Source: Sediminicoccus rosea (GTDB taxonomy: Bacteria; Pseudomonadota; Alphaproteobacteria; Acetobacterales; Acetobacteraceae). Taken from it: a stretch of 64,000 bases of DNA. The translations under genes and the position numbers were made by a program. Location: the NCBI RefSeq assembly GCF_033547095.1, contig NZ_CP137852.1:496001-560000 (forward strand), read 5' to 3'. Positions within the stretch are counted from its first letter, which is position 1. Every line of letters begins with the position of its first letter. Shown piece after piece: positions 2,003-53,958 of the stretch. Below the pieces are notes generated by a model. That model was not told the origin of the DNA, ran no database searches, and was given only the letters and a program-made list of their open reading frames with translations.

Positions 2003-2881
2003 ATGGCGAAGATCCTTGACGGCAAGGCGGTGGCCGAGCGCCTGCGCGGCCAGCTCGCCACCCGGATTGCGGCGCTGGACTTCCGGCCCGGCCTGGTCGT
2101 GCTCCGCGTGGGCGAGGACCCGGCGAGCGGTGTCTATGTCCGCAACAAGGACAAGGCGGCGACGGCGGCCGGCTTCGCCTCCCGCACGCGGCATCTGCCC
2201 GAGAGCACGACGGAAGCCGAGCTGCTGGCCGAGATCGCGGCCCTGAACGCGGACCCGGCGGTGGATGGCATCCTCGTCCAGCTCCCGCTGCCCGCCCATA
2301 TCCGCGCCGAGGCGGCGATCGCGGCGGTGGACCCGGCGAAGGATGTGGACGGCTTCCATCCGATCAATGCCGGGCGGCTCGCCTCCGGCCTGCCGGGACT
2401 TGTTCCCTGCACCCCGCGGGGCGCGATGCACCTGCTGGCCGAGGCCGGGGCCAGCCTGCGCGGCGCCCGGGCCGTGGTGGTGGGCCGCAGCCAGATCGTT
2501 GGCCGGCCCATGGCGCAGCTGCTGCTGGCGGCCGACTGCACCGTGACCATCGCCCATTCCCGCACGCGGGACCTGCCGGAGGAATGCCGCCGCGCGGACA
2601 TCCTGATCGCCGCCGTGGGCCGGCCCGAAATGATCCGCGGCGACTGGGTGCGCGAGGGCGCGATCGTCATCGATGTCGGCATCAACCGCCTGCCGGATGG
2701 CAGGCTCGTGGGCGATGTCGCCTATGCCGAGGCGCTGCCGCGCGCGGCCGCCATCACGCCGGTGCCGGGCGGCGTCGGCCCCATGACCATCGCCTGCCTG
2801 CTCGAGAACACGCTCGAAGCGGCCCTGGCGCGGCGTGGGCGCAGGGTTGGTGTGGCGGCTGCGCCCCAGGGAAGACCATGA
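2003..2881 (+). CDS. folD: Bifunctional methylenetetrahydrofolate dehydrogenase / methenyltetrahydrofolate cyclohydrolase FolD
   Basis: FolD interconverts 5,10-methylene-, methenyl- and 10-formyl-tetrahydrofolate using NADP in the cytoplasm, supplying one-carbon units for purines and formyl-Met. Diagnostic motifs are the catalytic YVRNKDKA segment (Tyr/Lys pair near residues 50-56), [17 protein letters not shown], the Rossmann GRSQIVGRP, and [12 protein letters not shown] near the C-terminus. The 292-residue length is normal. Its stop overlaps the next ATG (ATGA), indicating translational coupling to the small membrane protein that follows. Confidence 0.97.
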
Positions 2882-3120
2882 TCCTGCACCGCGCCTTGCA
2901 GGTGTTTGGCGGCCTGGCCTTGCTGGCCTGCCTGCATCTGGCCTGGGGGGCCACGCCCTGGGGCGGCGAGGGCTGGTCCCGCGCGCGCATGCTCTATGCC
3001 GGGGCGGGGGGGGTCTCCTCCCTCGCGCTGATCGCCATCGGCGGCCTCGGCATCACGCTGCGCCGCCAGCAGGAGGCACTGGCCCGGATCGAGGCCCTGC
3101 TGCGCCAGAAGCAGGGCTAA
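2878..3120 (+). CDS. Small two-span membrane protein of unknown function
   Basis: This 80-residue protein starts inside the folD stop codon. It has two hydrophobic segments (residues 6-24 and 38-60), then a charged helical tail rich in Gln, Arg and Glu ([19 protein letters not shown]) that could be a short coiled coil. I do not recognise a family. The ATGA overlap with folD makes it a real coupled gene rather than a chance reading frame. Confidence 0.6.
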
Positions 3121-3158
3121 GGCCGGCTTCCATCAACCTCCTTCTCGCCACGCTCTAC

Positions 3159-3986
3159 GTGCTGATGTGGGGCTCCGCCTTCAATGCGGCGCGCCTCGTC
3201 GCGCTGGAATGGCCGGCCCTCTGGGCCCTGGCCATCCGTTTCGTCGCGGTGGTGCCGCTGCTCTGGCTGATCTGGCGCTGGCGGCGCGTGCCCTTCCCGG
3301 TGGGCGAGGATCGCTGGCGCCTCGCGCTGATGGGCGCCTTCGGGATGGGCGGATACCTGGCCTGTGCCTGGGTCGCCTCGGCGCATGTGCCTTCGGGGCT
3401 GGTGGCGCTGCTGGCCGCCTGCGCGCCGCTCTTCGTGGCGCTGGGCGAGGCCTGGCGCGGGCAGCGACTGAGTCCGGGCGGGTGGCTTGGCCTGGCCCTC
3501 GGCTGGATCGGCGTCGCGACGCTCGGCTTCCTGCGCTCGGCCGACGGGCTGGAGGCGGCCGAGGCCTGGGGCATCGGCCTCGCGCTCTGCGGCGCCTTCC
3601 TCCAGGCGGTGGGCGTTCTGGCCTATGCCCCGGCGCGCGCCCGGATGGATCCCTGGGCCGCCAATCTCGGCCAGACGGCGGTGGCGAGCCTGGTGCTGAT
3701 CCTGCTCACCGTTGGCCTGGGCGGGCCGCCGCCCAAGGAGGCCAGCGGCACGCTGATCCTTGCCATGGTCTATTCCTGCCTCGCGGTCGGGATCGCCGGC
3801 TATGGGCTGTTCTTCGTGGTGATCCGCCGCTTCGGCGCCTCCAACGCGGCGGCGCTGCAGCTCATGGCGCCGCCCGTCGCGGCCGTGCTCGGCTGGGCCT
3901 TCATGGGCGAGCGGCTGGCCTGGGGTGACCTGCTGGGGGGTGCGATCACGCTGGCCGGCCTGTTGCTCATGTTCCGGGCGCGCTGA
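3159..3986 (+). CDS. DMT-superfamily (EamA) metabolite transporter
   Basis: About ten hydrophobic spans in two repeated EamA halves mark an inner-membrane drug/metabolite exporter. The MWGSAFNAARL segment at the N-terminus and the second-half ending LLGGAITLAGLLLMF are typical. The start is uncertain. The homologous N-terminus appears to begin a few codons earlier (about 3132), where no ATG, GTG or TTG exists but an AAGG ribosome-binding-like sequence precedes an ATC codon. The first ordinary starts are GTG 3159 and ATG 3165. The substrate cannot be predicted. Confidence 0.8.
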   Translation: MLMWGSAFNAARLVALEWPALWALAIRFVAVVPLLWLIWRWRRVPFPVGEDRWRLALMGAFGMGGYLACAWVASAHVPSGLVALLAACAPLFVALGEAWRGQRLSPGGWLGLALGWIGVATLGFLRSADGLEAAEAWGIGLALCGAFLQAVGVLAYAPARARMDPWAANLGQTAVASLVLILLTVGLGGPPPKEASGTLILAMVYSCLAVGIAGYGLFFVVIRRFGASNAAALQLMAPPVAAVLGWAFMGERLAWGDLLGGAITLAGLLLMFRAR

Positions 3987-4040
3987 GCCGGGCGCGCGGT
4001 GACTTTGCCCTTTCGCCGGATCCCGGCCTAACTTCGCGTC

Positions 4041-5222
4041 ATGCTTCACGGCCGCAAGATCCTGCTGATCGTCTCGGGCAGCGTCGCCGCCTTCAAGGCG
4101 CTGATGCTGGTCCGCCTGCTCCGCGCCGAGGGCGCCACGGTGCGCGCCGTGCTGACCGCGGGCGGCGCCCGCTTCGTTACGAAGGAGTCGCTCGCCGCCA
4201 TCACGGGCGAGCCGGTGCAGGACGACCTCTGGGCGGCCGAGGCCGAGATCGGCCATATCCGGATGGCGCGCTGGGCCGACCTTGTGGTGGTCGCCCCCGC
4301 CTCGGCCAACCGCCTGGCGCAGATGGCCCAGGGCCTCGCCCCCGATCTCGCCGGCTGCATCCTGCTGGCGACGCGCGCGCCCGTGCTGGTGGCGCCGGCG
4401 ATGAATCCCGCCATGTGGGCGCACCCCGCCACGCGCGCGAACATGGCCACACTCCTGGCGCGCGGCGTGCGGGTGGTGGGGCCCGAGGATGGCCCGATGG
4501 CCGAGCCGGAATCCGGGCCGGGGCGGCTGGCCGAGCCCGAGGCCATGGCGGCGGCGATCCGCGCCGTCTTTGCCACCGGTCCGCTCTCGGGCCTGCACGC
4601 GCTGGTGACGAGCGGGCCGACGCATGAGCCGATTGATCCGGTGCGCTACATCGCCAATCGCAGCAGCGGCAAGCAGGGCCACGCCATCGCGGCGGCGCTG
4701 GCCGCCCTCGGCGCGCGCGTGACGCTGGTGAGCGGCCCCGTCGCCCTGGCCGACCCGCCCGGCGTCACGGTGCGGCGCGTGGAGACGGCGCGCGAGATGC
4801 TGGCCGCCTGCGAGGCCGCCCTGCCGGCCGAGATCGCCATCTTCGCCGCCGCCGTCGCCGATTGGCGCGTGGCACGGGAGGCCGGGCAGAAGCTGAAGAA
4901 GCAGCCGGGCGAAGCCGCGCCCACGCTCGGCATGGCGCTGAACCCGGACATCCTGGCCACGCTCTCGCGCCACGCGCAGCGCCCGCGGCTCGTCATCGGC
5001 TTCGCCGCCGAGACCGAGCATGTCGTGGAGCACGCGCGGCAGAAGCTGGCGCGCAAGGGCTGCGACTGGATCGTGGCGAATGACGTTTCCGGCGATGTGA
5101 TGGGTGGTGCGGAGAATGCCGTGCACCTGGTCACCGCCGCCGCCGTGGAGGACTGGCCGAGGATGCCCAAGGAACAGGTCGCGGCGCGGCTCGCCGCCCG
5201 CATCGCGGAGCAGCTCGCATGA
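4041..5222 (+). CDS. coaBC: Bifunctional phosphopantothenoylcysteine decarboxylase / phosphopantothenate-cysteine ligase CoaBC
   Basis: CoaBC carries out two steps of coenzyme A synthesis: CTP-dependent joining of cysteine to 4'-phosphopantothenate, then FMN-dependent decarboxylation. The N-terminal CoaC flavoprotein domain has the [12 protein letters not shown] segment and the MNPAMW substrate-clamp motif near residue 117. The CoaB domain begins near residue 185 with [16 protein letters not shown] and NRSSGKQG. At 393 residues the fusion is full length. The last four bases overlap the dut start, and a coaBC-dut pairing is common in proteobacteria. Confidence 0.96.
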
Positions 5223-5656
5223 AGGTCCTGGTCCAGCGCCTGCCGCATGCCGAGGGCCTGCCGCTGCCCGCCTATGCCACGCCCGGCTCGGCCGGGATGG
5301 ACCTGCTGGCGGCGCGCGAGATGGTGATCCCGCCCGGCGGCCGCGCCCTGGTGCCGACGGGCCTGGCCGTGGCCATCCCGGATGGCTTCGAGATGCAGGT
5401 GCGCCCGCGCTCCGGCCTCGCACTCAAGCATGGCGTGACGGTGCTGAACGCGCCGGGCACGGTGGACAGCGACTATCGCGGCGAGGTGGGCGTGATCCTG
5501 CTCAACACGGCGGCCGAGCCCTTCGCCATCGCGCGGGGCGAGCGCATCGCCCAGGCGGTCTTCGCGCCGGTGACGCGCGCCGTCTGGGAAGAGGTGGTGG
5601 TGCTGCCCGAGACGCAGCGCGGCACGGGCGGCTTCGGTTCGACCGGGCGGGGCTAG
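5219..5656 (+). CDS. dut: Deoxyuridine 5'-triphosphate nucleotidohydrolase
   Basis: The trimeric dUTPase hydrolyses dUTP to dUMP and pyrophosphate, keeping uracil out of DNA and supplying thymidylate synthesis. All five motifs are visible: the GSAGMDLLA start motif, [11 protein letters not shown], the catalytic-Asp segment [22 protein letters not shown], and the glycine-rich C-terminal [10 protein letters not shown] that closes over the nucleotide. The 145-residue length is typical. Its ATG overlaps the coaBC stop (ATGA). Confidence 0.97.
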
Positions 5657-5742
5657 AGGAAGACGCGTTGAGGCGGAATCGCCGAAGCGCGGAATTATCC
5701 GCCCAGGAGAGGCCTGACCCTGCGGCGTGAACGCAGCGTGGT

Positions 5743-51776: not shown

Positions 51777-52076
51777 ATGGCTCGCCGCTGCGGCATCACC
51801 GGCAAGGGCGTTCAGTCTGGCAACAATGTCAGCCACGCGAACAACAAGACCCGTCGGCGCTTCCTGCCCAACCTGCAGGAAACCTCCTTCTACTCCGACG
51901 TGCTGGCCACCTCGATCCAGCTGCGGCTGACCACGTCGGGCATCCGCACCATCGAGCACAATGGCGGCATCGACGCCTTCCTGCTCACCACCAAGCCGCG
52001 CAACCTGCCGCCCGAGGCGGTGGTGCTCAAGCGCCGCATCCTGCGCGCCCAGGCCAAGAAGGCCGCGGCGGCCTGA
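51777..52076 (+). CDS. rpmB: 50S ribosomal protein L28
   Basis: This 99-residue ribosomal protein begins [20 protein letters not shown], the standard L28 N-terminus. It carries the [12 protein letters not shown] segment and the alphaproteobacterial C-terminal extension, ending in a Lys/Ala-rich tail. The first structural CxxC pair of some L28 proteins is absent apart from one Cys, as is common. It is a single gene, flanked by a promoter-like region and a strong intrinsic terminator. Here it is not paired with rpmG. Confidence 0.96.
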
Positions 52077-52297: not shown

Positions 52298-52313
52298 TTA
52301 ACCGGCTGTTAAC
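52298..52313 (+). promoter_or_regulatory. CtrA-type binding site
   Basis: TTAA, seven bases (CCGGCTG), TTAAC matches the full CtrA consensus TTAA-N7-TTAAC of alphaproteobacteria. It lies 24 bases before the start of the kinase-like gene, where CtrA would act as an activator or repressor at the promoter. Such TTAA pairs are rare by chance in this GC-rich sequence. Confidence 0.65.
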
Positions 52314-52336
52314 CGAATCGGGCGAGAATCACTCGC

Positions 52337-53140
52337 ATGATGACCGACGCCCTCCCCGATGCCCTCCCCGCCGCCCTGGCCGTCCTCGCCGCCGCCGGCG
52401 GGCTTGCCGCCATTGCCGGTCTCGGCCGCGCGTCGCGCCTCGCGGCGGAGCTGACCACCCTGCGCGGCCTGGCCGAGGGCCGGCGCCGCAGCTTCGGCCT
52501 GCTCGCGCGGGACATGAACAGCCTGGGCCTGGCCCTGCTGGGCCGCGCCCAGCTCCTGGCCACGCAGTCCGGGGGAGAGGAAGCCGGCCGCGCCTTCGAG
52601 GGGGAGGCGCGGCACCTTCTCGCCCTGGCCGATGCCGCCGCCGAGGAAGCGGGCGGCGCCGTGCCCGCGCGCGGCCTGCAGGAGGAGCGCTTCCCGCTCG
52701 CGCCCATCCTGCGCGAGGCGGTGGCCATCGCCAGCGCGCAGCTTGGCCCCGGCAAGCGGCATTGGCGCATCGCGCCGGCCATCGAGAACCTGGCCGTGAC
52801 GGCCGACCGGCGTGCCCTGCGCGGTGCCCTGGTTCAGGTGCTGGGCCGCGCCGCCCGCGCCACGGCCGAGGCCGATGTGATCGAGATCCGCGCGGATCTG
52901 AGGCCGCATGCCGCCTCGATCATCATCGAGGATGAGGGGGTGGGCCTCGCCATCGAGGATCTGGCGCCCATCGCCCATGATGGCGGGGCCGACCGCTCCC
53001 GGGGCCTGGGCTTCGGGCTCTCCCTGGCGCGCTCGCTGCTGCGGGCCCATGGCGGGGAGCTGGTGATCGAGGCCGCGCCGGGGATCGGGGCGCGCGCCTT
53101 CCTCTCGCTGCCGCCGGAGCGGATGGCGGCGGTCGCCTGA
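52337..53140 (+). CDS. Degenerate histidine-kinase-like protein
   Basis: An N-terminal hydrophobic helix (residues 8-30) is followed by a helical dimerisation-like region and a HATPase-like domain. The G1 box (IEDEGVGLAIED, D200) and G2 box (RGLGFGLSLARSLL) are intact. The H-box position reads LLARDMNSLGLALL, so the phospho-acceptor His is replaced by Arg (about R58). The N-box reads VLGRAARAT, so the Mg-binding Asn is replaced by Arg (about R172). It is probably not an active kinase and may be a signalling scaffold or phosphotransfer partner. It is 267 residues long. A CtrA-type site lies just upstream. Confidence 0.75.
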   Translation: MMTDALPDALPAALAVLAAAGGLAAIAGLGRASRLAAELTTLRGLAEGRRRSFGLLARDMNSLGLALLGRAQLLATQSGGEEAGRAFEGEARHLLALADAAAEEAGGAVPARGLQEERFPLAPILREAVAIASAQLGPGKRHWRIAPAIENLAVTADRRALRGALVQVLGRAARATAEADVIEIRADLRPHAASIIIEDEGVGLAIEDLAPIAHDGGADRSRGLGFGLSLARSLLRAHGGELVIEAAPGIGARAFLSLPPERMAAVA

Positions 53141-53147
53141 ACCCGGC

Positions 53148-53438
53148 CTACCAGTGGCGGCGGGGGCCGCCGCGCCAGGGCCGGCCGTAATAGTGCCGGG
53201 GCGGCCCGTAATAGACCGGCGGCGCGTAGAAGCGCGGCGGCGGCGGGGGCACGAAGACCACGGGCGGCGGCACGAAGAGCGGCCGCGGCGGCGCGTAATA
53301 GACCGGCGGGGGCGGGACGTAGCGATAGGCCGGCGGGCCGAAGCCCGGCTTGTCCCAGTATTGCGCCTGGGCGCCCCCCGGCTGCAGCAGGCCCAGGGCC
53401 AGGGCGCCGGCGATGATCAGGCTGTGGAACGGTCGCAT
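53148..53438 (-). CDS. Exported Tyr/Pro-repeat protein, copy A
   Basis: This 96-residue protein has a signal peptide (residues 1-25, cleavage after GGAQA). A low-complexity mature region built from aromatic-Pro units (YVPPPP, YYAPP, FVPPP, FYAPP, YYGPP) follows, ending in an Arg/Trp-rich tail. ATG 53438 follows AAGGAGG by eight bases. A similar gene of identical length lies 69 bases upstream on the same strand. The envelope role is unknown; such Tyr/Pro repeats may bind peptidoglycan or polysaccharide or cross-link. Confidence 0.7.
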   Translation of the reverse strand: MRPFHSLIIAGALALGLLQPGGAQAQYWDKPGFGPPAYRYVPPPPVYYAPPRPLFVPPPVVFVPPPPPRFYAPPVYYGPPRHYYGRPWRGGPRRHW

Positions 53439-53507
53439 CGGAGAAGCCTCCTTCACTCGTCACAGGGAACACGGCCAGCATGGCCGAAGCGTGGCGCGAT
53501 CATGGCG

Positions 53508-53798
53508 TCAGCCGCCGCGCCAGCCCCGGTAGGGGCCGCCGCGATAGGGCCCGCCATAATAGCGCGGCGGCCCATAGAAGCGGGGCGGCGGCGCGTAGTA
53601 GCGCGGGGGCGGCGCGTAGAAGCGCGGCGGCGGGGGGGCGTAGTAGCGCGGCACGGGCGCGTAGTAGCGGGGCGCCGGCGCGACATAGGCCGGGCCGACA
53701 TAGCCGCCGCCATAGACCGGCCCGCCGACATAGCCCGGGGCACAGGCCGTGAGCGACGCCAGGGCGCCCAGGATCACACCTGGCTTCAGCCATCGCAT
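53508..53798 (-). CDS. Tyr/Pro-repeat lipoprotein, copy B
   Basis: This 96-residue protein is a likely lipoprotein, with a signal ending in SLTAC (Cys19). The mature part contains about six RYYAP/RFYAP-type units followed by a Gly/Arg/Tyr tail (GGPYRGGPYRGW). ATG 53798 follows a GGGAGGAA site. It shares length, repeat type and Arg-rich end with copy A, which is soluble rather than lipidated. Similar Tyr/Pro lipoproteins occur widely in Acetobacteraceae and Rhizobiales, with no assigned function. Confidence 0.72.
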   Translation of the reverse strand: MRWLKPGVILGALASLTACAPGYVGGPVYGGGYVGPAYVAPAPRYYAPVPRYYAPPPPRFYAPPPRYYAPPPRFYGPPRYYGGPYRGGPYRGWRGG

Positions 53799-53958
53799 GG
53801 CATGTTCCTCCCGCGTGGCCGGCAAGGCGGTGGCCACGGCCAAGACATGGTGGGGCGACCGATCCTGCCAACGCGCCTTGCGGCGTCCGGTTGCGGCCAG
53901 GGGGGATGACGCGCCCCGCTCATGGCGGAAGCAAGGCGAAACCGGGGTGATTTGAGGC

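Follow-up and report, generated by a model that had tools for sequence, protein, structure and literature searches.

A candidate CtrA-linked pseudo-histidine-kinase with a putative membrane anchor in Acetobacteraceae

In the 64,000-nt stretch of DNA analysed here (the window), one open reading frame encodes a histidine-kinase-like protein with arginine at the positions of the phospho-acceptor His and of the N-box Asn, and a CtrA-type site lies ahead of its start codon. This raises the question of whether a kinase without catalysis is kept within the CtrA network, as an earlier note had suggested from the DNA alone, and what it would do there. The features of the locus in the 5.14 Mb source genome are listed in Table 1. 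Two neighbouring ORFs on the minus strand (53148-53843), convergent with the pseudokinase gene, encode small exported-looking products rich in a Tyr-Tyr-Ala-Pro-Pro repeat.

Table 1. Features of the pseudokinase locus, in positions of the window.
Feature	Position	Strand	Basis
rpmB (ribosomal protein L28), upstream neighbour of pseudokinase	51777..52076	+	ORF; name by sequence recognition
CtrA-type box TTAACC-N5-TTAACC (TTAA-N7-TTAAC), -39 to -23 from ATG	52298..52314	+	sequence; orthologue footprint
-10-like element GAGAAT (inferred), fits a transcript start at or next to the ATG	52324..52329	+	sequence; A/T-enriched columns; SD rarity
Pseudo-histidine-kinase CDS, 267 aa	52337..53140	+	ORF list and translation; orthologues; dN/dS
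Putative membrane anchor, residues 9-30, hydrophobic head of the long N-terminal helix	52361..52426	+	sequence and AlphaFold helix 9-76
DHp-like two-helix hairpin, residues 45-105	52469..52651	+	AlphaFold helices 9-76 and 81-105; profile alignment with ZraS and DivL DHp
Codon 58, Arg instead of the phospho-acceptor His (H-box)	52508..52510	+	alignment with orthologues and intact kinases
Codon 171, Arg instead of the N-box Asn	52847..52849	+	alignment with orthologues and intact kinases
HATPase_c / CA domain, residues 157-261	52805..53119	+	Pfam; 58/58 members scanned match PF02518

Of the two kinase profiles proposed earlier as a check, HATPase_c was found in the window protein (E 4.8e-13) and HisKA was not detected; in the Pfam scan HATPase_c alone was above cut-off, and HPTransfase was not matched either. 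No HisKA and no PAS domain was found in any of 58 pseudokinase family members at E up to 0.01. The AlphaFold model, built from an alignment of the window protein and 57 orthologues, had a mean pLDDT of 86.6 and showed a long helix (9-76) and a second helix (81-105), followed by the CA domain, whose lid (209-224) had a pLDDT below 50. The best 50 Foldseek rows for this model were mostly DHp-CA kinase structures, including ZraS, HK853, DivL, YycG and CpxA, and ChpT was not among these 50. The model and the profile alignments indicate that the protein has a DHp-CA fold. The hydrophobic N-terminal segment is probably a single membrane anchor, beside which there is no space for a periplasmic domain.

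Among 60 relatives searched, 24 orthologue loci were found, a number that includes the window's own locus, and the closest relative found (G009) was 96% identical in the pseudokinase protein. By profile search the gene was present in 138 of 397 genomes of the family, at 139 places, and a gap separated the orthologues (E 3.8e-44 or better) from other kinases (3.9e-35 or worse). With 105 further orthologue places added to the sample, a set of 145 orthologues was obtained, consisting of ORFs of at least 140 bits with duplicates removed; it includes a second clade not associated with rpmB and leaves out two short matches at contig ends (G209 and G218). Outside the family, the search covered 24 genomes, with the single protein as query, and a named collection, with one peptide pattern. 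No published description of this pseudokinase family was found in the literature searched, the scope of which excluded most subscription journals. The second clade (L081, L082, L083, L084 and L085) was not beside rpmB where the upstream DNA was covered and keeps a TTAA-type box near -38; the records of Roseococcus sp. SKW89 carry both clades (L078 and L084).

In seven pairs of orthologues dN/dS was 0.08-0.34, indicating that the pseudokinase is under purifying selection in the pairs tested. A local mutation or a pseudogene was rejected on the strength of 145 distinct open ORFs together with dN/dS well below 1 in these seven pairs; the 145 were selected as open frames, and openness by itself is no test for a pseudogene. 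One stop within the profile match was flagged at each of four places (G131, G285, G192 and G108). At G131, G192 and G108 an ORF, either the place's own or that of a duplicate row, spans from the ATG to the normal C-terminus, and at G285 the duplicate L068 appears to do likewise.

Alignment with orthologues and intact kinases placed an arginine at codon 58, confirming the reading of the H-box as lacking its His; the N-box Asn is also replaced by Arg as proposed, at residue 171 and not 172. Both G1 (DEGVG, 199-203) and G2 (GLGFGL, 223-228) were intact in the window protein, again as first read, and nucleotide could therefore still be bound. Among the 145 distinct orthologues, position 58 was Q, R and H in 40, 38 and 22, respectively, with other residues in the rest (the replacements of His include R, Q, E, A, T and S), and position 171 was R, D and N in 91, 15 and 13, respectively, again with others in the rest. 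His 58 and Asn 171 occurred together in only one orthologue (L288), in which residue 227 is Arg, and the full set of H58, N171, D199, G201, G203, G225 and G227 occurred in none of the 145, which bears out the description of the protein as a pseudokinase. The earlier note had asked whether the two arginines are conserved and had held that an intact His in orthologues would point to a local mutation: His is present in 22 of 145, yet a complete active site is present in none, so that the incomplete site is kept across orthologues and R58 itself varies. A frozen R58 was accordingly rejected. Judged from the alignment, what stays conserved is the lack of a complete active site, not R58. In the close orthologue L009 (G007; 74-75% identical) residue 58 is His (CAC) and in its sister L008 it is Arg (CGC), a one-base difference, and His can therefore be gained or lost easily here.

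The acid at 59, next after the His position, was present in 144 of 145 orthologues; together with T, N or Q at 62, which we take to be the HisKA phosphatase motif, it was present in 18 of 145, a pattern more in keeping with a surface for binding than with an enzyme. D157, R159 and R222 were invariant (145/145), and the G1 and G2 residues D199, G201, G203, G225 and G227 were present in 142, 143, 138, 97 and 113 of the 145, respectively. On a quick tree, made with the two trait columns masked, the His position changes nine or more times and the Asn position six or more, and all six outgroup kinases have both residues. The nearest kinase of the same genome lies in an open frame that also contains several PAS-like repeats, and its HELRTP, NNA and GSGLGL are intact. 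Because the outgroup kinases have both residues and the changes at His and Asn are repeated, an ordinary kinase core appears to have been captured and its catalysis lost by routes that differ between lineages. The best other match of the pseudokinase in the genome lies in L205 (G000:C1:679500-686525), in a frame of more than 2,300 codons that carries a series of PAS-like repeats and ends in an intact HisKA-HATPase.

The 22 His-bearing orthologues could have a role in phosphotransfer. It is distinctly unlikely, in our estimate, that the family consists of phosphotransferases or receiver phosphatases where His is kept and is decaying elsewhere, in the manner of ChpT or Spo0B after the loss of ATP use. 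Such an origin would agree with the His kept as HELR in 10 of the 22, with the Asn missing in 21 of the 22 and with His plus Asn in the 6/6 outgroup kinases, but the repeated changes at the His position, to varied residues and under purifying selection in the seven pairs, argue against it, as do the profile results for ChpT. ChpT is a kinase-derived DHp-CA dimer whose kinase function is gone, and the pseudokinase resembles it as a kinase-derived DHp-CA protein that does not work as a kinase; it differs from ChpT in having no PF10090 match, in having mostly lost the His, in keeping G1 and G2 here and in carrying a putative anchor. No match to PF10090 (HPTransfase) was found in the pseudokinase at E up to 10, and the match of the genome lies elsewhere, in a ChpT candidate at 442689-443006 (46.4 bits, cut-off 22.9), about 105 kb from the pseudokinase. 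This candidate scored 45.4 and 36.6 bits against the NCBIfam ChpT models, far below their cut-offs of 225 and 240, respectively. No profile similarity was found between the pseudokinase family and this candidate, a comparison with one sequence on the ChpT side. Identity with ChpT, raised beforehand as a finding that would overturn the proposal, was rejected on these grounds. In L206 (G000:C1:440000-446000) a same-strand frame (3059-5734) begins directly after that of the ChpT candidate (2306-3055) and is CheA-like by eye, with an Hpt-like start; receiver matches lie at contig positions 445365 and 446267. In this genus, the genes for ChpT and for signalling of the chemotaxis type may belong to one operon.

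Among known proteins, DivL of Caulobacter is near to the pseudokinase by fold and profile, and it has a DHp-CA core without autokinase activity and a link to the CckA-ChpT-CtrA network, as the pseudokinase probably does. We consider it unlikely that the pseudokinase is a DivL-like adaptor that joins CckA at the membrane and, in place of DivL, shifts the balance between its kinase and phosphatase activities. In a profile search against solved structures DivL was third of 41 matched sequences (E 3.8e-16), with an alignment spanning DHp and CA, and among the best 50 Foldseek rows it took ranks 7 and 19 with the highest identity (23-24%), which favours such an adaptor, and the absence from the source genome (G000) of any codon pattern for the peptide YELRTP, which we take to be the DivL motif, would agree with it. 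On the other side, two ordinary kinases outranked DivL in the profile search, Tyr was found at position 58 in none of the 145 orthologues and PAS domains in none of the 58 members scanned, and the pseudokinase has a single short putative anchor and a CtrA-type box of its own. DivL, which has several PAS domains and carries Tyr in place of the His (in Magnetospirillum magneticum, Ala), is reported to lack kinase activity and to bind ATP weakly (PMC4211667). Vacancy of the DivL role would also be in line with a survey in which divL, cckA and chpT were identified in only 27-36% of Rhodospirillales genomes; its authors warn that divergence may hide these genes (PMC8116508).

A CtrA candidate was found at G000:C1:137520-138188. 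Its best NCBIfam match was CtrA, at 344.8 bits just below the cut-off of 350, and it was 52% identical to a query sequence that we take to be a Caulobacter CtrA. Upstream of ctrA itself there were only weak box matches: the one on its own strand scored 6 of 9 and the one on the opposite strand 7 of 9.

The TTAA-N7-TTAAC site described earlier ahead of the ATG was found at 52298-52313 (TTAACCGGCTGTTAAC). TTAA-N7-TTAA occurs only at this position in the window and in none of 100 dinucleotide shuffles of it. In the whole genome the exact TTAAN7TTAAC was found 4 times (at 3 places) and its reversed form 5 times; when as many as two mismatches were allowed, TTAACCN5TTAACC gave 38 matches and its reversed form 63. 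Genome-wide counts were rejected as evidence since the bare pattern is at chance, and the evidence for function is therefore the conserved position of the box and the genes that carry it. The other exact sites, at G000:C1:3500026 and 3504989-3505005 (L034-L036), are located in a region of reduced G+C (0.55-0.60) near response-regulator matches, and the site at 3504990 is 36 nt ahead of an ORF resembling, by eye, a cellulase-type glycosidase.

The position of the box is conserved. In a footprint of 66 orthologues, with starts picked without regard to the motif and scores out of 9, the best offset was -39, taken with -38. The 30 orthologues less than 60% identical had a mean score of 5.70 at the best offset and 14 of them scored at least 7; 300 shuffle sets averaged 2.71 at their best offsets and reached 3.07 at most. 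When any in-frame ATG was allowed as the start, a score of 6 or more at -40 to -37 was reached by 119 of 141 orthologues and one of 7 or more by 82, while only 6 and 3 of the 141 scored at least 6 at control offsets handled alike. The TTAA pair, the loss of which upstream of orthologues had been named as an argument against the site, is thus kept. Either half-site can decay while the other persists among orthologues, as would be expected for a regulator that binds two half-sites.

The ORF upstream of the box, which from its sequence we take to be rpmB, was beside the pseudokinase at 51 of 67 orthologue loci (tblastn synteny count), and two of the 16 loci without it had fewer than 500 upstream bases. 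An origin of the box from the 3' end of rpmB was rejected: the box is retained, at a score of at least 6, by 12 of the 15 scorable loci that have no adjoining rpmB. In five further genomes with the pseudokinase, four have the gene after rpmB and one (G110) has it elsewhere. In 23 genomes with rpmB (11 of the family without the pseudokinase gene and 12 of other families), no ORF matching the family profile was found within about 1.5 kb downstream of rpmB.

In the 30 divergent orthologues, columns 26-28 after the box start were A/T-enriched, and the column 27 nt past the box start was enriched in A (18/30); SD-like motifs were found in only 4 of 66 orthologues. Because of this A enrichment and the rarity of SD-like motifs, and with the box ending about 23 nt ahead of the ATG, the transcript is probably leaderless and starts at or next to the ATG. 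On that start, the box kept in orthologues would lie at about -35. Flagellar promoters activated by CtrA likewise have TTAA-N7-TTAA or near variants at -35, and the pseudokinase promoter differs in how close its box ends to the ATG. According to two studies, CtrA-activated promoters have mostly one site at -35, with degenerate half-sites in fliQ and fliL (PMC11264516), and an A at -11 is invariant in the fla2 promoters of Rhodobacter sphaeroides (PMC6180460). CtrA is the putative box-binding factor by likeness of the motif, and another factor could bind.

It is highly improbable that the TTAACC pair is part of an ordinary sigma-70 promoter, as its -35 element, with CtrA uninvolved. In several orthologues the first half-site is, by eye, about 18 nt ahead of a GCTAAG-like -10, as such a promoter would have it. 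In L003-L005, L007 and L012-L014, however, the intact half-site is the second one, 11 nt nearer the start, and a -35 role therefore cannot explain the box; the same 17-nt dyad also lies ahead of flagellar genes in several of 14 genomes.

The genes sharing the box are in part motility genes. TTAACCN5TTAACC with at most one mismatch was found at three sites in the genome, ahead of the pseudokinase gene, a MotB-like gene and a CheY-like gene, the latter two with 56 and 61 nt, respectively, from the first base of the site to the first possible start. In 14 relatives there were 47 box sites and 27 reversed-pattern sites. Thirty of the 47 (those with loci given) were counted, with the downstream ORF picked by length and GC3; 18 of these ORFs were Pfam-scanned, two (L339 and L326) were recognised by identity and 10 were judged by eye. 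Eight of the 30 sites were before flagellin (3), flgK, fliF (2), motB or a cheY-like gene, the CheY-like gene of L339 being assigned through near identity to the scanned L149. Two more were before chemoreceptor-like genes, L345 with TarH and PAS and L325 with HAMP and PAS, both clipped by the locus end. The other 20 had no recognised motility gene downstream; one of these is the pseudokinase itself, the non-motility genes include those for an EAL protein and an aminotransferase, and at the remaining sites no gene was recognised. No motility gene was found after the 27 reversed-pattern control sites, of which 4 had no ORF and the other 23 were Pfam-scanned (10) or judged by eye (13). For 10 motility-type sites among 30, with the share of motility genes set at 2%, P was about 2e-10, which is optimistic given the kinship between genomes. 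The site proposed earlier as CtrA-type thus has a fixed place among orthologues and is common to flagellar genes, and the pseudokinase probably lies downstream of CtrA, together with motility genes.

Of 40 chosen genomes with the pseudokinase gene 38 had fliF, against 30 of 40 chosen genomes without it, a weak co-occurrence (Fisher p 0.025, kinship ignored). In the genus, neither the pseudokinase gene nor fliF is present in G012 and G016, and G013 has fliF without the gene. The pseudokinase is missing from many flagellated relatives and is thus dispensable for motility. A structural factor of the flagellum or the chemotaxis array, in which the kinase fold would be merely a membrane-anchored dimer without phospho-signalling, would be in keeping with a box common to flagellar and chemotaxis genes and with the lack of a sensory domain. 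We regard it as quite improbable: the acid at 59 and most G1 and G2 residues are conserved, which a mere scaffold would not need, and fliF is present in those 30 genomes without the gene.

Conservation of the family, loss of catalytic residues, the position of the box and its presence at motility genes are direct observations. The reading that we tentatively prefer, and would put slightly below an even chance, is that CtrA drives the expression of a pseudo-histidine-kinase which belongs to the motility regulon, has a membrane anchor but no PAS domain, and binds a receiver with no transfer of phosphate. Phosphorylated CtrA would transcribe the pseudokinase gene along with flagellar and chemotaxis genes. 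The putative DHp-CA dimer would keep its shape and probably a receiver-docking surface, and its kinase cycle could not be completed. It would bind a receiver non-catalytically; candidates are CtrA, the CckA receiver and a protein like CheY or DivK. The receiver would be held or buffered at the membrane, with feedback of either sign on CtrA output or motility. Receiver binding is proposed because of two precedents. DivL is a catalytically dead kinase able to sense a receiver (PMC4211667), and Osp of R. sphaeroides is activated by CtrA, has a CtrA-type site upstream in most species examined, and inhibits CckA in a feedback loop by acting on the CckA transmitter (PMC9430884). As a CtrA-activated protein feeding back on CckA, Osp is a model for how the pseudokinase may act; Osp is a single-domain receiver-like protein, whereas the pseudokinase is kinase-like and has a putative anchor. 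A more specific proposal, of a receiver trap without enzyme activity that is widespread in Acetobacteraceae, has lost catalysis by many separate routes and provides CtrA-induced negative feedback in place of DivL/DivK in an ancestral motility circuit, seems to us doubtful.

To our knowledge, few pseudo-histidine-kinases are well studied, and DivL is the one tied to CtrA. The family described here would be a second and much simpler CtrA-linked pseudo-histidine-kinase, consisting of a putative anchor and a DHp-CA core and present in 138 of the 397 genomes searched. Its promoter can be traced, and its catalytic losses are graded, with His or Asn still present in some natural orthologues. The family opens the question of how CtrA output is controlled in early-branching alphaproteobacteria, in which DivL, CckA and ChpT are often unrecognised, and of why a kinase fold is retained after its catalysis has been lost.
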